Below, piece by piece: positions 1 to 6,332 of a DNA stretch of 6,664 nt. The stretch comes from an uncultured Atopobium sp. (GTDB taxonomy: Bacteria; Actinomycetota; Coriobacteriia; Coriobacteriales; Atopobiaceae). Numbering within the stretch: position 1 is the stretch's first letter; each line of letters opens with the position of its first letter. The stretch spans positions 1 to 6,664 of the forward strand of contig CAMPCT010000121.1 in assembly GCA_946647055.1 (NCBI GenBank), written 5' to 3'. Under the pieces are notes generated by a model. That model was not told the origin of the DNA. It did no database searches and was given only the letters and a program-made list of their open reading frames with translations. Position numbers and translations under genes: made by a program.

Positions 1-991
1 TCTGCTTGTCGACGTTGCCGCGCGGGTTCTCGGCGATGCACTCCGGGCACCTGCGCTGCGCCTTGGTCTTTCCGGTGAAGACGCGCCCGCAGACGGCGCA
101 CTCCCTCGGGCCTTCCGTTGACCTCTGTTCGCCGCGGGCCTTATTGCCCGCGTCCAGGCACGCGCGGCACGTCTGCGCCCTGCTTGGGCATCGGCGCTGG
201 CGCTCGTCCTCCACGAACATCCGGCCGCACACCGCGCACCTCCTCGGCGCGTTGGCCTGCGCGTCGGTCACGGCGGACTGGAGCATGCACCACGCCAGCG
301 CGGCGTTGAGCGAGTCCGCGTCCCAGTAGCCCGGCGTGTCGGGGCTGTTGAGCCGCGCGATCATGCTCCGCGGCACCAGCACGAGGTTGGCCGGGTCGAA
401 GTTGCGGATGTCGCGGTCGGCGAAGTAGACGCACATGCCCTCGGGCACCTCGTCCGCGCCGTTGGCCTCGCGCCACACGACGTGGTGCTTCGGCTCCCAG
501 TTGTCCCGGGTGCCGGGCCGCCTCGGCTCCTCGCGCACCTTCACGTAGACGTAGCCGTCCTTGCGCTCCAGCTCGCTGCCGAGCGGCTTGGGCACGCGCC
601 CTCCGCGCTTCTCGCGCATCCTGCGCCCGCCGTGGTAGGCGCGGAACTGCTGCACCTGCCCGCGGGTGAGCCTGATGCCGAACTCGGCCTCGAAGTCGGC
701 GATGGTGACGGGCACGCCCGCGGTGTCGTGCTCGAGCATCCACGCCTTCATGTGCGCGAACTCCGGGCGGCTCCACCGGATGGCCTGCTGCGCGGCCTCG
801 GGGCTCTTGCGCCCCGTCCTGTCCTTCTGCTTCTTGACGCCGAGCGCGTCGGCCTTCATGCGCACCGACAGCACGGTGGGCCGCCGCCCGAACAGGCGCT
901 CGAACTCGTCGAGCGCAGAGGCCGAGTCGGTGTGCAGCGGCCACCGCTCGCGCAGCCACGCGCACTCCTCGTCCGTCCACACCTTCGGCAC
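1..991 (-). CDS. HNH endonuclease with two C-terminal Cys-cluster (zinc-ribbon-like) repeats (partial)
   Basis: An uninterrupted frame of 330 codons runs from GTG at 991 off the left edge. The N-terminus (MPKVWTDEECAWLRERWP) resembles a Myb/SANT-like DNA-reading segment, and a second region (IADFEAEFGIRLTRGQVQQF) may repeat such a helical fold. The HNH core follows: KDGYVYVKV (144-152), WEPKHHVVWREANG (165-178, catalytic His169/His170 region), then FADRDIRNFDPANLVLV (190-206) with Asn202. After it come two related Cys clusters. One has Cys252, Cys255, Cys268, Cys275 and Cys278. The other has Cys298, Cys301, Cys315 and Cys318. The GTG sits one base after the preceding TAG. This is typical of free-standing phage HNH nucleases, which may act in recombination, packaging or as homing enzymes. 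The C-terminal end is missing. Confidence 0.85.
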   Translation of the reverse strand, partial: MPKVWTDEECAWLRERWPLHTDSASALDEFERLFGRRPTVLSVRMKADALGVKKQKDRTGRKSPEAAQQAIRWSRPEFAHMKAWMLEHDTAGVPVTIADFEAEFGIRLTRGQVQQFRAYHGGRRMREKRGGRVPKPLGSELERKDGYVYVKVREEPRRPGTRDNWEPKHHVVWREANGADEVPEGMCVYFADRDIRNFDPANLVLVPRSMIARLNSPDTPGYWDADSLNAALAWCMLQSAVTDAQANAPRRCAVCGRMFVEDERQRRCPSRAQTCRACLDAGNKARGEQRSTEGPRECAVCGRVFTGKTKAQRRCPECIAENPRGNVDKQ

Positions 992-1867: not shown

Positions 1868-2348
1868 TTGCCAGCCTCGCCATGCCCCGCACCGCCGCAG
1901 CTCGCCTTGCCAAACCAAACCCCGCCTTGCCTGCCATTCCCCGCCGGGCCTCGCCGTGCCTTGCCTGGCCATGCCGGGCCTCACCGCACCCTGCCGAGCC
2001 GTGCCGTACCTTGCCTGCCTTGCCATGCCTGGCCTCGCCCAGCCAGGCCTCGCCACAACGCGCCGTACCACGCCTGCCTCGCCAAGCCAAACCTAGCCTC
2101 GCATCGCCTCGCCAAGCCAAGCCTGACCACGCCTGCCTCGCCTTGCCGCGCCAGGCCTGACCACGCCATACCGTGCCCCGCACCGCCGTGCCACGCCTGC
2201 CTAGCCGAGCCTGGCCTCGCCATACCGTGCCACGCCAAACCAAACCGCGCCTGCCAAGCCTCGCGGCGCCTTGCCGTGCCCTGCCAAGCCTCGCCGGGAC
2301 GAGCCATGCAACGCCCCGACTGCCAAGTCCGGCCACGCCTGCCGGGCC
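1868..2348. repeat. 481-bp non-coding pentamer array, 98 units of NNGCC (GGCNN on the transcribed strand)
   Basis: Reading the plus strand in register gives 89 five-base and 9 four-base units. The GCC core is exact in 74 of 98. ACC replaces it in 13 more and TCC in one, so CC (GG in the transcript) is kept in 88. The two leading bases vary freely: all 16 dinucleotides occur, with TC (14) and AA (11) commonest. Longer words recur (CCAAACCAAACC at about 1910 and 2236, CCCCGCACCGCCG at about 1885 and 2176). The array fills the whole interval between one base past the stop at 2350 and about 18 bases before the next gene's ribosome site. It is nearly stop-free in all frames only because of its composition. 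Translations are low-complexity W/R/G/A/Q strings, so I call it non-coding. No promoter, tRNA or terminator is visible in it. Confidence 0.92.
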
Positions 2349-2349
2349 G

Positions 2350-3033
2350 CTAGATCTTCAGCGCGTACATGCCGAACTGGCCGTCGCGCTCGGGCCTCCA
2401 CTCGCCGATGCCGCAGGCGAAGCCGCCCACGTTGAAGCAGTTCAGCAGCTGCTCGAGGCTGTACTTGCCGTTGGCGTTGTAGGTCATGCGCAGCGGTATC
2501 TCCCAGTCGCGGAACTCGGGGCGGTATCGGATGTCCGCCGTCTTGCTCATGCCGCCGACCTTCACCATGTCCTCGCGCATGATCGGCGCGGGCCCAACGA
2601 TCTCGGCGAGGTCGGTGGTGGCCGCGTCCGTGGCGCCCGCGAGGAAGAACGAGCCGCGCAGCTCGGTCTGCTTCACGTCGAGCCCCGCGCGGTACGCGCC
2701 GACGATCACGCTCTGCTTGATGCCCGTCACCGGGAACCCGAACCTCGCCCCGGCCTCCACGGCCGCCTCCCACGCGGCCTCCGCCTGCGCGTCGGTCTCG
2801 CCCGGCTCGGGCTGCCGGGTGAGCCAGTAGCACGCCGCCATCATGTCGTTGACCGGCACCTTGACGTCGTGCTTGGCCTTGGTGGCCTTCTTCTGCTGCT
2901 TGTCGAGCATCTGGCGCTTGGCCTTCTCGCTCCATGCGTGGACGATGAGCGGGGTTGTTCCCGCGATCGTGATGTCCACGGTCGCCAGCTCCATCGCCTT
3001 GAACTCGACCGCCTCGGTCTTCTTCGCTGTCAT
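2350..3033 (-). CDS. Conserved phage protein with C-terminal GEWRPERxGxFG motif, function unknown
   Basis: This 227-residue protein has an N-terminal IAGTTPLIVHAWSEKAKRQMLDKQ block (23-46), a middle with GFPVTGIKQSVIVGAYRAGLD (99-119), the run GPAPIMREDMVKVGG (147-161), RYRPEFRDWEIPLRMTYN (169-186), and a glycine-rich end GGFACGIGEWRPERDGQFG (203-221). I know this arrangement as a widespread protein of phage early regions, usually near SSB and annealing proteins, without a proven role. The glycine loops flanking beta strands are reminiscent of RAMP/Cas7-like folds, but that is only an impression. The start follows AGGAGG closely. The stop codon lies one base before the pentamer array begins, so it is the last gene before the break in the operon. 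Confidence 0.8.
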   Translation of the reverse strand: MTAKKTEAVEFKAMELATVDITIAGTTPLIVHAWSEKAKRQMLDKQQKKATKAKHDVKVPVNDMMAACYWLTRQPEPGETDAQAEAAWEAAVEAGARFGFPVTGIKQSVIVGAYRAGLDVKQTELRGSFFLAGATDAATTDLAEIVGPAPIMREDMVKVGGMSKTADIRYRPEFRDWEIPLRMTYNANGKYSLEQLLNCFNVGGFACGIGEWRPERDGQFGMYALKI

Positions 3034-3657: not shown

Positions 3658-3963
3658 CTATCCGTAGAACCGGCCTATGTGCTCCCAGAATCCGTCGTCG
3701 CGGCAGGGCGTCCACGTCCGGGCCACAAGCCCCGTGGAGCACTTGCCCCGCCACTCCCAGCCGTCCTCGTAGCGCAGCTCCAGCTCGTGGCGGTGGCGCA
3801 GCGCGTGGCAGCCGGTGAAGTTGTCGCAGAGGCTCACCCTCGGCGGCTCGGTGCCCTTGCTGCCCACGCCCCCGAGGCCCTTGGGCGGCTCGTGGTGCTT
3901 GTCCGTCGCGGGACGGCCGCAGACGATGCAGAAGCGCTGCAGCATGTCGTGCGGGTGGCTCAT
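3658..3963 (-). CDS. Small HNH-like (His-Me finger) zinc-binding protein
   Basis: The product is 101 residues. It has a Cys12-x2-Cys15 knuckle (CIVCG), then DKHHEPPKGLGG with His23-His24, then SLCDNFTGCHALRH with Cys46, Cys52, His53 and His57. This spacing, with paired cysteines before and after the HH motif, is that of compact phage HNH proteins with a structural zinc and a beta-beta-alpha metal site. A tryptophan-rich end follows (WEWRG, FWEHIGRFYG). ATG at 3963 is chosen over ATG at 3975 because it overlaps the upstream TGA as ATGA and has GGAGG just upstream. Such proteins sit in phage recombination regions and may nick branched DNA, comparable in position to NinG-type genes. Activity is not shown by sequence alone. 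Confidence 0.75.
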   Translation of the reverse strand: MSHPHDMLQRFCIVCGRPATDKHHEPPKGLGGVGSKGTEPPRVSLCDNFTGCHALRHRHELELRYEDGWEWRGKCSTGLVARTWTPCRDDGFWEHIGRFYG

Positions 3964-4292
3964 GACGCCCTCCATTCCCGCGACAGCTGCGCGTCGATGA
4001 TCTTGCAGTCTTGGGAGAGCACGAACAGCCGCTGCCTGCTGACCTCCCAGTCGGTCTTGGCGAGGTCTCGCTGCATGCGCAGGTCGGCCACCGCCTTCTC
4101 GCCGCGGGCGAGGTCGGGCGTGAGCGTCGCGGGCATGCCGCCCGTGCGCAGCTCCACCGTCTTCTTCGCCAGGGCGATCCTGTAGTCGCGCTCGGCGATG
4201 GCGAGCTGGCGGCCCGAGGCCTTCATGCTCTCGGTCTCGAGCTCCATCTCGCGCAGCTTGTCCATCAGCTCGGTGAAGAGGTCCTTGCTCAT
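3960..4292 (-). CDS. Conserved coiled-coil phage protein
   Basis: This is a 110-residue, mostly helical protein. It has an N-terminal amphipathic helix (MSKDLFTELMDKLREMELE), a second block AERDYRIALAKKTVELRTGGMP, the segment TPDLARGEKAVADLRMQRDLAKTDWE, and a final helix ending AQLSREW. The order (Tyr-Arg-x-Ala-Leu-Ala-Lys, a Gly-Met-Pro turn, an invariant-looking Leu-Ala-Arg-Gly, then Arg-Asp) matches a small protein I know from early regions of many Firmicutes siphophages, without an assigned function. The start overlaps the replication-protein stop as ATGA, and the stop overlaps the next ATG the same way. No catalytic motif or cysteine pair is evident, so a structural or adaptor role beside replication is more likely than an enzyme. 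Confidence 0.75.
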   Translation of the reverse strand: MSKDLFTELMDKLREMELETESMKASGRQLAIAERDYRIALAKKTVELRTGGMPATLTPDLARGEKAVADLRMQRDLAKTDWEVSRQRLFVLSQDCKIIDAQLSREWRAS

Positions 4293-5116
4293 GACGCGGC
4301 CCTCCACGTGATGCCGCACTCCTCGCAGCGGTACAGCGGCGATCCGGGCGTGATCTGCGCCCGCTCGTGCCCGCACTCGGGGCACTCGGCGGTCTCGGGC
4401 GGCCTCTCCACGGCGGGGGCCTTCTCCTCGGGGCGGTTGAGCCACTGCTCGAAGCGCCCGTCCGCGAACGCCGCGTTCGGCGTGCGGAACCTCGGCTCCC
4501 ACGTCGCGACCACTTCCAGCACCCGGTCGACGTCGGCGGGGCCGTGGCCTGCGCCGAACGCCTCGGCGAGTCCCCTGCGGGCGTCGCCGGGGAACGCCGT
4601 GTAGGCCGTCTGGAACCGGTTGTTCCACTCCTTGAGGGCGTGGGCGAGGAACCGCGCCAGCCCGTCCTTCTCGCCGACGATCTCCATGCCGCCGCCGCCC
4701 TGTACTACTGCGGCAGCAGTAGTACTCTCTTTCTCACTCTCACTCTCACTCTTTATAGAAAGGTCGGAGCTAGGTTCCACCTGTCGGGGCGTTTTAGGTT
4801 CCTGATAGGTTCCACCTAGGTTCGACCTAGGTTCGACGTAGGTTCCACCTAGGTTGGACATAGGCTCGGCCTCTTTTGCGCCTTTACCGGCCTTTTTGCC
4901 AGTCTGGGCCTCCGACTTCCTGCGCGCTATCTCGACACGCTGGCGCATCCCCTCGAAGATGTTTCGCTCCATTCCCTTGAGCCTTTTCGGCTCGGTTCCA
5001 TCGAAGTAGTAACGCGCGATCGCGCCCGCGATGCGGTCGTATGCGGCTTCGGAGATGCCCGTGAGCTGGCTGTGAAAATCATGTTGGAAGTAGAATCCCT
5101 TCTGCGCCTTGGGCAT
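4289..5116 (-). CDS. Phage replisome-organiser-like protein, DUF6291-like N-terminus, C-terminal zinc ribbon
   Basis: The product is 275 residues in three parts. Residues 1-72 (FYFQHDFHSQLTG...AAYDRIAGAIARYYFDG...RNIFEGMRQRVEIARR) resemble the DUF6291-type domain found at the start of many phage replication proteins. Residues 73-145 are a low-complexity linker holding an 11-residue repeat (SNLGGTYVEPR, then SNLGGTYQEPK) and a SESESEKES stretch. Residues 150-235 are a helical domain (ARFLAHALKEWNNRF, FEQWLNRPEE). The end has a zinc ribbon with Cys245, Cys248, Cys264 and Cys267. The linker DNA carries iteron-like repeats, as in lambda O, which supports an origin-binding initiator. ATG at 5116 is preferred because AGGAGG lies eight bases upstream. 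A GTG at 5125 would overlap that site. The TGA overlaps the next start. The initiator role is inferred from architecture and position. Confidence 0.7.
   Translation of the reverse strand: MPKAQKGFYFQHDFHSQLTGISEAAYDRIAGAIARYYFDGTEPKRLKGMERNIFEGMRQRVEIARRKSEAQTGKKAGKGAKEAEPMSNLGGTYVEPRSNLGGTYQEPKTPRQVEPSSDLSIKSESESEKESTTAAAVVQGGGGMEIVGEKDGLARFLAHALKEWNNRFQTAYTAFPGDARRGLAEAFGAGHGPADVDRVLEVVATWEPRFRTPNAAFADGRFEQWLNRPEEKAPAVERPPETAECPECGHERAQITPGSPLYRCEECGITWRAAS
4702..4725. repeat. Perfect inverted repeat, 10-bp arms and GGCA loop
   Basis: The arm GTACTACTGC (4702-4711) is exactly complementary in reverse to GCAGTAGTAC (4716-4725), around a four-base loop. It lies inside the replication gene, where it encodes the STTAAAV part of the linker, 45 bp from the outlying iteron. 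No T-run follows on either strand, so it is not a standard terminator. It could be an origin hairpin or a dyad protein site. Confidence 0.7.
4726..4755. repeat. Pyrimidine-strand CTCACT tract next to the iterons
   Basis: The plus strand here is almost all pyrimidine, with CTCACT repeated three times and ending CTTTATA. It is the stretch with the lowest GC around, standing out in a GC-rich window, and it encodes the SESESEKES part of the linker. With iterons on one side and an inverted repeat on the other, it is the best candidate for a duplex-unwinding element. That role is inferred from position only. Confidence 0.55.
4771..4781. repeat. Outlying iteron copy
   Basis: An exact TAGGTTCCACC sits 24 bp from the start of the contiguous iteron block, separated from it by 13 bp (4782-4794). 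It lies between the block and the CTCACT tract, as expected for the unwinding-proximal repeat of an origin. Confidence 0.7.
4795..4871. repeat. Seven contiguous 11-bp iteron-like repeats inside the replication gene
   Basis: On the plus strand the units start at 4795, 4806, 4817, 4828, 4839, 4850 and 4861. They read TAGGTTCCTGA, TAGGTTCCACC, TAGGTTCGACC, TAGGTTCGACG, TAGGTTCCACC, TAGGTTGGACA and a degenerate TAGGCTCGGCC. An eighth exact copy, TAGGTTCCACC, lies apart at 4771-4781. The 11-bp step is about one helical turn, so bound protein would sit on one face. As 11 is not a multiple of three, the repeats are read in all three frames and yield an 11-residue peptide repeat every three units. 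This suggests selection on DNA rather than protein. Iterons inside an initiator gene are established for lambda-type origins. That these are an origin here is inference. Confidence 0.8.
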
Positions 5117-5124
5117 GCGCCGCA

Positions 5125-5130
5125 CCTCCT
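5125..5130 (-). promoter_or_regulatory. Shine-Dalgarno site that fixes the replication-protein start
   Basis: A full AGGAGG is read on the minus strand here, with eight bases to ATG at 5116. It overlaps the end of the ssb stop codon and the alternative GTG at 5125, so the ATG is the usable start. This junction has a 12-base gap, whereas the neighbouring junctions overlap. Confidence 0.8.
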
Positions 5131-5644
5131 AGAAAGGTATATCCGCGTCCTCCATCGCCATCTGCCGGCCCTGCTGGCCCGCGGCGCGCACGGCCTCGGC
5201 GGCCTGCTGCGACCAGCCGGGCTGCTGGCCTCCCGGTGGCGCGTACATGTTCATCTGCTGCGGCTGCGCGTATTGCTGCGGGGCCTGCGGCTGATACTGC
5301 TGCGGCTGTTGCTGCTGGCGGCTGCTCATGAACTCGATCTCGTCCACGATGACCTCGAGCTTGGTGCGCTTCTGGCCGTCGCGCTCCCACTGCGAGAAGC
5401 GCAGCTTGCCCTCGATGGCCACCTTGGTGCCCTTCACGAGGTAGCGCGCCAGCCCCTCGGCCCTCGCGCCGAAGAGCTGGCAGTCGATGAAGTTCGGCAC
5501 GTCCTCCCATTCGCCGGTCTGGGGATTCCTGCGGCGGTCGTTCACCGCCACGCCCAGCCCCAGCACGGCGGTGCCGCCGGCCGTCTGGCGCAGCTCCGCA
5601 TCCCGGGTCAGATTCCCCGTGATGACCACTCGGTTGATGCTCAT
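5129..5644 (-). CDS. ssb: Single-stranded DNA-binding protein
   Basis: The product is 171 residues. The OB fold occupies about residues 1-105, starting MSINRVVITGNLTRDAELR, with the typical GTAVLGLGVAVNDRRRN strand, the NFIDCQLFG strand (51-59) and the GTKVAIEGKLRFSQWERDGQKR block. Residues 107-160 form a Gln/Pro-rich linker (QQQQPQQYQPQAPQQY). The protein ends MEDADIPF, the acidic tip by which SSBs recruit partner proteins. It is expected to coat single strands at the phage replication fork and during ERF annealing. The start ATG overlaps the upstream TGA, with a purine-rich AAAGGA about eight bases before it. Length and domain order are normal for bacterial and phage SSBs. Confidence 0.97.
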   Translation of the reverse strand: MSINRVVITGNLTRDAELRQTAGGTAVLGLGVAVNDRRRNPQTGEWEDVPNFIDCQLFGARAEGLARYLVKGTKVAIEGKLRFSQWERDGQKRTKLEVIVDEIEFMSSRQQQQPQQYQPQAPQQYAQPQQMNMYAPPGGQQPGWSQQAAEAVRAAGQQGRQMAMEDADIPF

Positions 5645-5838
5645 TCCTTTCGTCCTTTCAGCTCGTACACGAACAGGCCGCCCTTCTTCGGGACGTGCCT
5701 GCACGTGATGATGTATCCGTCGTTGTTGTTCAGCTCCCAGATGCGGGCCCCGTAGCGCAGGCACACGTTCTCGGCCAGCCATGCGTTGGTCTTGGGGCCG
5801 TCCCGCAGGGCATCGAGCACGCGCTCCTTCTGCGTCAT
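5641..5838 (-). CDS. Small winged-helix DNA-binding protein
   Basis: This 65-residue protein begins MTQKERVLDALRDG. The pattern is that of a small phage winged helix-turn-helix: a first helix (KERVLDALRDG), a short helix plus recognition helix (TNAWLAENVCLRYGARIWELNN), then a beta wing (GYIITCRHVPKKGGLFVYEL). The block ARIWELNNNDGYII resembles the xRIfELrk-GY signature of helix-turn-helix domains common near phage replication genes. The ATG overlaps the ERF stop and its TGA overlaps the SSB start, so it is coupled on both sides. It may control early transcription or assist replication. Which of these applies cannot be told from sequence. Confidence 0.75.
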   Translation of the reverse strand: MTQKERVLDALRDGPKTNAWLAENVCLRYGARIWELNNNDGYIITCRHVPKKGGLFVYELKGRKE

Positions 5839-6332
5839 GAGGGGTAGCCTCCCCACATCTGCTCCTGCGGCGCGTACTGCTGCGTTTGCTTCTGCTGCTT
5901 CTGCGGCGGCTCGATCGCGTCGCTGTCCTTCGTCCCGTCGATGGCGAACAGGCCCGCGAGGGCGTACTTCCTCGCGTAGCTGATGGCCGCGCCGGTGAGC
6001 TGCGCCGAGTCCATGCCCTTCTTCTCGTCGGGCATGAGCGCCGGGGCCGAGACGGTGAGCGAGTCCCCGTCGGGTCCCTGCAGCGTCGCGTCGGCCCAGA
6101 TCACCTGCGCCGGGGCCACGGCCGCGCCCCTGGCTGCGTTGATGGTCTCGATGCGCGTCTGCATCACGACCGAGTAGCCGTCGGGCAGCAGCTCCTTGAC
6201 CCTCTGCAGGATGCTCTCGGCGTTGCGGTAGGGGTACTTGCCGAAGCCGTTCCACTGGTCCTTGGGGACCTTCAGGCCCGCCTGGATGTCGTGCAGCACG
6301 TCTGGCAGCTCCTTGGGCTTCTTCTCTGCCAT
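5835..6332 (-). CDS. erf: ERF-family single-strand annealing recombinase
   Basis: The product is 165 residues and matches the ERF superfamily, phage proteins that bind single-stranded DNA and anneal complementary strands during recombination and genome circularisation (as P22 Erf does). Visible hallmarks are FGKYPYRNAESILQRVKELL (about 30-49), the hydrophobic strand VVMQTRIETI (55-64), and the core block QLTGAAISYARKYALAGLFA followed by IDGTKDSDA (111-139), a typical ERF ending. After residue 141 comes a Gln-rich, disordered-looking tail (PPQKQQKQTQQY) ending in an aromatic and glycine stretch. It begins immediately after the TAG of the small upstream gene and its TGA overlaps the next ATG. 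It is somewhat short for the family, mainly because the tail is brief. SSB encoded one gene downstream supports the call. Confidence 0.9.
   Translation of the reverse strand: MAEKKPKELPDVLHDIQAGLKVPKDQWNGFGKYPYRNAESILQRVKELLPDGYSVVMQTRIETINAARGAAVAPAQVIWADATLQGPDGDSLTVSAPALMPDEKKGMDSAQLTGAAISYARKYALAGLFAIDGTKDSDAIEPPQKQQKQTQQYAPQEQMWGGYPS

Follow-up and report, generated by a model that had tools for sequence, protein, structure and literature searches.

In CRISPR arrays, palindromic repeats of about 30 nt (about 25–40 bp) stand between the spacers, and it is this constant element that sets one guide apart from the next. Another way of storing guides, the Viral Interference Programmable Repeat (VIPR), was first described in a 2026 preprint (PMC13142463), cited here from the parts of it available to us. 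According to these parts, the protein Vipr reads the NN pairs of its RNA against DNA, one base being skipped between pairs (PMC13142463). VIPR types run from I to VII, and vipr-accessory genes from vap1 to vap6. The VIPRs of Escherichia phage SUSP1 and of a prophage of Pseudomonas fulva are of type II, and for both it has been demonstrated that the RNA is expressed and bound and that repression occurs; vrRNAs of this type stand apart from one another and end in a conserved, structured 3′ tail (PMC13142463). ‘Staggered arrays with overlapping vrRNAs’ are mentioned as a VIPR layout (fig. S18), RNA sequencing having confirmed only the other two non-type-II layouts (PMC13142463). This preprint alone was found on the subject. 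A literature search for the pentamer element by sequence words gave nothing relevant among the papers listed, and VIPR was reached through a match in the PDB.

The window considered here, by which we mean the whole stretch of 6,664 nucleotides analysed, contains a pentamer array for which a first-pass annotation had known of no described function, a statement that the preprint, dating from April 2026, has overtaken in the parts available. The window contains, we believe with high confidence, a VIPR locus of a tailed phage, made of vipr, a multi-guide array on the same strand and an accessory gene, the guides of which would repress genes of competing phages; the host of this phage is probably a member of the Coriobacteriia. 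Six things can be read from the sequence: the array, the RAMP fold of the protein together with its kinship to Vipr, the fact that protein and array occur linked, the target of one guide, the sharp edges of that guide at the tetramers and the turnover of guides in related phages.

An array punctuated by tetramers

The array fills the interval between vipr and the accessory gene (Table 1), as the first-pass annotation had it, and it does so within a phage replication operon whose genes stand close together between 3033 and 6500, again as claimed. On the minus strand, a model parse resolves it into pentamers and tetramers. GG is kept in 81 of the 90 pentamers and GGY in 79, so that 11 of the 90 deviate from GGY; the conserved core seen at first therefore stands, but the count of 98 units, 88 of them with the core, gives way to 90 pentamers and nine tetramers. 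The tetramers read AGGC seven times, AGTC once and TGGC once. All 16 dinucleotides are present at NN, which agrees with the earlier reading, and an array that keeps its framing letters while two free positions vary is indeed no microsatellite. Two other claims did not survive the parse. The phase had been said to be held: GCC words of the plus strand between 1868 and 2348 fall in all five phases (23, 16, 13, 11 and 11 of 74), because a 4-base unit slips the phase after every 10–16 pentamers. The free positions had been seen as a drifting spacer, where NN would instead be the text of the guides. This regular phase slip is the key to the structure of the array.

The hidden Markov model used for the parse was trained on 24 arrays, that of the window among them. 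In these, the pentamer reads NN-G(.93)-G(.78)/T(.17)-C/T and the tetramer A(.94)-G(.98)-G(.86)-C/T. Under this model, whose training included it, the window (68% GC) scores 284.5 bits; none of 200 dinucleotide-preserving shuffles exceeds 0.6, and none of 200 mononucleotide shuffles 0.0. The parse gives seven guides of 13, 10, 12, 11, 11, 16 and 11 pentamers, preceded by two short stubs that adjoin the preceding gene. The vrRNA tract by which a VIPR is recognized has 9–16 YNNGG repeats, in which GGY is conserved and NN hypervariable, and such tracts are what the window contains. At most two pentamers precede the first tetramer in 121 of 180 arrays, arrays beginning at a contig start being left out. 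Between the window guides there is no constant divider beyond the tetramer and the neighbouring GGC, so that this array shows no counterpart of the 3′ tail known from type II vrRNAs; Rfam gave no match at gathering score.

Table 1. Features of the window discussed in the text (positions counted from its first nucleotide)
Feature	Position	Strand	Remarks
HNH endonuclease	2–991		
Accessory gene, 151 aa, candidate VIPR-associated protein	1384–1839	−	start preceded by AAGGAGGG
VIPR guide array	1865–2350	−	90 NNGGY-type pentamers and 9 tetramers; final pentamer at 1865–1869
Last guide, 11 NN pairs + TGGC	1870–1928	−	
Guide, 16 NN pairs + AGGC	1929–2012	−	
Guide, 11 NN pairs + AGGC	2013–2071	−	central 8 pairs searched: no target
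Guide, 11 NN pairs + AGGC	2072–2130	−	
Guide, 12 NN pairs + AGGC	2131–2194	−	matches PriCT_2/AAA_25 phage primase gene at VTGGTIVQLAKDHGW
Guide, 10 NN pairs + AGGC	2195–2248	−	
Guide, 13 NN pairs + AGGC	2249–2317	−	central 8 pairs searched: no target
Short unit	2318–2336	−	3 pentamers + AGTC
Leading stub	2337–2350	−	two pentamers and first AGGC; one-base overlap with the vipr stop codon
vipr	2350–3033	−	227-aa RAMP-fold (Cas7/Csm3-like) protein, predicted to bind guide RNA
SSB	5129–5644		
ERF single-strand annealing protein	5835–6332		

Vipr and its linkage to the array

The profile of the Vipr family matches the ‘SUSP1 Vipr protein’ of the PDB (entry 36pp, chain 36pp_D) with E = 1.2e-13, and the profile built from the loci finds, in a 12-sequence search, the Vipr proteins of Salmonella phage VSe11 (3.8e-22) and Pseudomonas phage LESphi2 (6.2e-33). 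The window protein has, in other words, the homology to SUSP1 Vipr that marks a VIPR. Its AlphaFold2 model (pLDDT 94.0) matches CRISPR RAMP structures, and GxGxWRP is conserved near the C-terminus; this predicted fold and this motif correspond to the minimal RAMP fold with a glycine-rich loop expected of VIPR. The reading frame of vipr is intact. Pfam has no family for the window Vipr: YpoC, the commonest hit over 93 members, was rejected as its identity, occurring in 8 of them only, with a best E of 1.7e-4.

Used as a query, the 227-aa protein retrieved 28 loci from IMG/VR, and 6258 proteins at E ≤ 0.001 from a large protein set. A strict test for a chain of GGC pentamers on the strand of the protein was positive in 12 of the 28 loci, and the model was positive in 25; relatives devoid of fixed framing, which the first-pass annotation would have counted against the array, were looked for in this way, and the array is present in these 25 loci found via the neighbouring protein. 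Independently, the repeat pattern alone retrieved at least 120 loci from IMG/VR; these include duplicates, L015 and L042 being one contig. The model parsed arrays in 119 of the 120 pattern loci listed, and Vipr was found in 92 of the 120. In all 92 it lies no more than 1 kb from the nearest array and shares its strand. The distance is less than 100 bases in 49 of these 92 listed loci, the array being downstream in 73 and upstream in 19. The Vipr profile for this count was extended with array neighbours; its first round, made from matches in the large protein set, had already found 119 of the final 123. No Vipr was found in 27 of the 119 array-bearing pattern loci listed, where the array lies at one end of the stretch in many cases, not in all. 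Two loci, L025 and L026, encode Vipr with no array found, and in L028 the array comes after the second gene, not before it.

The array-bearing phages range from about 35 to 68% GC, the loci retrieved via the protein spanning about 35 to 65% and the window standing at 68%. In 20 of 20 callable gene-to-gene intervals of at least 140 bp, that of the window included, G makes up 34–47% of the coding strand. In the 191 arrays compiled from 155 of 159 sequences, letter frequencies display a conserved GGY and a free NN, the first N leaning towards A or G, and the pentamer preceding a tetramer ends in C in 98% of cases (runs of 8–14). Eight loci on genome contigs all carry the protein, the array and the 151-aa gene. 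They come from assemblies of Atopobiaceae, Eggerthellaceae, Clostridia, Lachnospiraceae, Ruminococcus, Ruminococcaceae and Xanthobacteraceae; the early impression of relatives in gut Firmicutes is borne out by Lachnospiraceae and Ruminococcus, to which Coriobacteriia are to be added. The two closest of these loci, 70% and 68% identical, belong to assemblies from sheep and goat jejunum, which we take to be of the class Coriobacteriia. The same layout is found in four Gordonia phages, in Mycobacterium phage Saal and in cyanophage Cy-LDV1.

Several details of these phage genomes deserve mention. Punctuated arrays lie on both sides of the accessory gene in Cy-LDV1 (L234:3078–3267 and 3865–4025). 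UmaThurman gp40 (L149:5598–5921) and Pipp gp43 (L230:3584–3853) are annotated on VIPR arrays and are probably not real genes. The start of Saal gp51 (L229:3851–3997) is upstream of vipr and runs to the edge of the array.

Accessory gene and surroundings

The family of the 151-aa protein (AlphaFold2 pLDDT 93.2) is present in 82 of the 120 pattern loci listed. It adjoins Vipr in Gordonia phages UmaThurman, Pipp, ODay and Ecliptus, in Mycobacterium phage Saal and in cyanophage Cy-LDV1 (E ≤ 7.7e-41, 12-sequence search, with a model that may have the UmaThurman and ODay proteins among its building sequences). The AlphaFold2 model had no match in the PDB at E ≤ 0.001, and the profile did not detect VSe11_083 (E 0.29) or LESphi2 P21_8 (E 0.38), both of which are placed as vap1 would be. 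Family scans and PDB comparison revealed no nuclease domain in the protein, which weighs little in the choice between repression and cleavage. The VIPR locus of the window is embedded among phage replication and recombination genes (ERF, SSB and an HNH endonuclease; Table 1), and there were no cas families among the 10 of about 15 window genes that were scanned. An 11-bp tandem repeat (TAGGTTCCACC/TAGGTTCGACC) occupies positions 4795–4872, inside the gene at 4289–5125.

A guide that matches a phage primase

Three window guides were searched against a viral collection, each by its 8 innermost NN pairs with one free base between pairs. For the guide at 2131–2194, 39 phage contigs share the 8-pair core (16 bases). 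The 8 bases held out of the search match at all 8 positions in 10 contigs, at 7 in 14, at 6 in 2 and at 5 or fewer in 13, the chance mean being 2. An 8/8 match would arise by chance about 39 × 4^−8 = 6e-4 times, with all 39 taken as independent and bases as uniform; since the 39 contigs carry largely one gene family, they are counted as about one event. The match starts in codon phase 0 of a same-strand ORF in 32 of the 39, and the base skipped in the primase target is mostly the wobble position. The motif GGTIV(Q/H)LA is present in the called ORF of 22 of the 26 contigs with at least 6 held-out bases matched, the ORF caller having picked another frame in the remaining four. PriCT_2 (PF08707) and AAA_25 were found in three of three target proteins scanned, and phrog_2597, a DNA primase, in two of two. 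The guide at 2013–2071 gave 17 contigs (best held-out match 3/6) and that at 2249–2317 gave 14 (best 5/10), hence no target for either in this search. Targets read with a 1-nt skip, another mark of VIPR, are in this way found for one of the three window guides searched and not for the other two.

The edges of the match are sharp. Over the 26 targets, the match per pair is 0.77–1.0 inside the guide (1.0 by construction for the inner 8 pairs). Outside both AGGC tetramers it is mostly below 0.5 and patchy, with a maximum of 0.60 over five offsets, none of which restores the match beyond the tetramers. Because the match ends at both tetramers, one tetramer-bounded stretch is one guide; that AGGC delimits guides is an addition to VIPR as described.

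Guides of other loci were examined as runs of 8–16 pentamers without internal breaks (918 runs, 904 of them unique), skips of 0, 2 and 3 nt and shuffled guides serving as controls. When the 904 guides were compared with about 1.38 Mb of collected loci at E < 0.001, the 1-nt skip retained 2 guides and each of five shuffles none; of the other skips, 0 and 2 nt retained none and 3 nt one guide. By score, these two are a guide of L006, which matches the vipr gene of L013 at 23/24, and a guide of L001, which matches a helicase motif in L151 and L155 at 22/24. At E < 0.05 the excess for the 904 guides with the 1-nt skip is weak (15, against 9, 3, 11, 7 and 7 in shuffles), and loose thresholds separate the 1-nt skip poorly in two of the guide-target runs. 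Among later-collected loci, at E < 0.01, the 1-nt skip retained 5 guides (0, 1 and 1 in shuffles), one of them the window guide with which some of these loci had been picked, and skips of 0, 2 and 3 nt retained 1, 0 and 1 (0–2 in shuffles). To judge from the phases, the skipped base would fall on the wobble position in antisense matches as well. Over all guides, NN usage correlates modestly with codon positions 1–2 (Spearman 0.30, Pearson 0.44), which we do not use as proof of the code; nor do we claim the single weak matches of guides of L154 (to a repressor), L020 (to an exonuclease), L137 and L145.

Two guides, from L006 and L011, match the same Sak4-like gene of L155 at 16/18 and are offset from each other by one unit. 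The string common to both gives 15/16 matches in 8 further loci, 7 of them with a similar FGYG(K/N)GYT motif. Seven contigs with the primase core matched by the window guide (L162, L165, L168, L184, L188, L190 and L195) also carry a Sak4-like gene, which the guides of L006 and L011 match. As the primase-core contigs share this gene, a common target group is possible, and different VIPR phages may target the same group of phages.

Turnover and convergence of guides

The Vipr proteins of L008 and L009 are identical over the aligned part, and their 10 and 6 guides have none in common; the same holds for L067, L097 and L147 (Vipr 97–98% identical; 3, 6 and 3 guides). Near-copy contigs have all guides in common. 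To the eye, the arrays behind vipr in L008 and L009 are alike in their first and last parts and differ in the middle. Guides are thus replaced between phages with near-identical Vipr, which also adds to VIPR as described.

For convergence, NN strings were compared across arrays, leaving out five near-identical contig pairs and L068/L084, the four common guides of which are alike in scaffold too. Five pairs agree with at most one mismatch, as against none in each of 30 order-shuffled controls, and eight with at most two mismatches, as against a mean of 0.9 and a maximum of 3. Reversing every second guide left 4 pairs with at most two mismatches and 3 with at most one; this is not a clean control, many pairs staying in matching order. 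Scaffold identity is 0.67–0.74 in five of the eight pairs, the background being 0.74, and four of the five pairs with at most one mismatch do not rise above background. The other three pairs (0.81–0.87) could share descent. None of the convergent pairs is among Vipr pairs of at least 85% identity (L096 is without Vipr). Since NN strings are shared when scaffolds are no more alike than background, the NN text is what is kept; different arrays carry common NN text in different scaffold letters, a further addition to the described system. The convergent guides of L006/L086/L143, L049/L105 and L049/L092 have no targets among the collected loci, and that of L047/L096 has one 13/14 match there. In L105, two guides resemble each other and match a single guide of L049, at 17/18 and 16/18, as though directed against variant forms of one target.

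One could see in the AGGC-punctuated, tail-less VIPR array an updatable memory, where cassettes would be replaced and NN text acquired independently through an unknown guide-writing process or very strong selection. We regard this as a rather unlikely reading. The letters that match the target are interleaved with scaffold (GGY/GTY), so that simple copying of target DNA cannot make guides, and a guide-writing or strong-selection process would have to do so. If this reading were true, guide writing or very strong selection of guides would exist.

How the locus may work, and what else it could be

In the mechanism that we propose, the array would be transcribed with the operon and its RNA cut at or near AGGC, yielding guide RNAs each made of the 10–16 NNGGY pentamers between tetramers. 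Vipr would coat each piece, one subunit per pentamer, holding GGY and presenting NN, and at the tetramer, one base short, the protein filament would lose its 5-nt register. The NN pairs would then be read against double-stranded DNA, in which one base goes unread between successive pairs; in coding targets this is the wobble position. Binding would block transcription of genes of competing phages, one guide being directed at a replication primase. We propose repression, not cleavage, on the strength of experiments on other VIPRs, as given in the available parts of the preprint (PMC13142463).

A VIPR array might also be decaying or disused in the window phage, with the fold and the layout persisting and few guides having live targets. 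That two of the three guides searched lack a target and that 11 of the 90 pentamers deviate from GGY would fit this scenario, which we nevertheless consider improbable: vipr has kept an intact reading frame and its product is predicted to fold well, one guide has a perfect match to a primase gene in 10 contigs, and phages of this host group are, in our judgement, probably so sparsely sampled that missing targets are to be expected.

Readings that do without guides fare worse. Within-array duplications, such as the identical or near-identical units of L098, L073 and L097, are what a functionless low-complexity tract born of slippage would leave behind; yet the array is on the same strand as Vipr and less than 1 kb away in 92 of the 92 Vipr-bearing pattern loci listed, the linkage is kept in phages of about 35–68% GC, and the target match is in codon phase. 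Slippage, to which we give practically no credence, is already refuted by the conserved linkage of Vipr and array. The chances are just as minute for a protein-binding array read as double-stranded DNA, of the kind of replication iterons or a partition site, even though the surrounding operon, which serves replication and recombination and includes SSB and ERF, would be a fitting place for one. Iterons repeat their whole sequence, whereas NN is free in VIPR arrays; NN strings recur between arrays without the scaffold; and the partner protein has an RNA-guide (RAMP) fold.

Recognizing a VIPR locus in the window has consequences beyond this one phage. It gives support, from sequence only and beyond the phages tested at the bench, to the idea that a phage protein with the fold of the CRISPR backbone reads DNA via a gapped code. 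Guide boundaries in punctuated arrays would turn these into readable records of which phages fight which; the record of the window would be that of a phage with its closest bacterial relatives in assemblies, presumably of Coriobacteriia, from the sheep and goat gut, set against phages with a PriCT_2 primase. As the layout occurs in cultured Gordonia and Mycobacterium phages and in cyanophage Cy-LDV1, laboratory testing is possible.

Comparison with known systems

With class 1 CRISPR-Cas (Cas7/Csm3 backbone), the window has in common the RAMP fold of the backbone protein, a guide array with short constant dividers and the turnover of guides. It differs by its 4-nt divider, by non-contiguous pairing and by being phage-borne; palindromic repeats of about 25–40 bp, the hallmark of CRISPR, are replaced here by a 4-nt unit.

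Among VIPR layouts, staggered arrays possibly have the same architecture as the window array. Their vrRNAs overlap, however, whereas the target-coding stretches of the window end at tetramers, as the target match indicates. The main text of the preprint has no word beginning with ‘tetra’ (PMC13142463).

Type II VIPR has separate vrRNAs, whereas the guides of the window are contiguous, divided by AGGC, with nothing but the tetramer between them. Separate tracts of 10–13 pentamers are found in Salmonella phage VSe11 and Pseudomonas phage LESphi2, one tract of the latter being parsed with a leading AGGC. The accessory protein of the window, for its part, has no detectable relationship to the product of the gene that follows vipr in these two phages, at the E values given above. 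What the window and type II VIPR have in common is a Vipr homologue, a predicted NNGGY repeat RNA with hypervariable NN, a code that skips one nucleotide, targets in other phages and an accessory gene in the operon, which in the window is a candidate.
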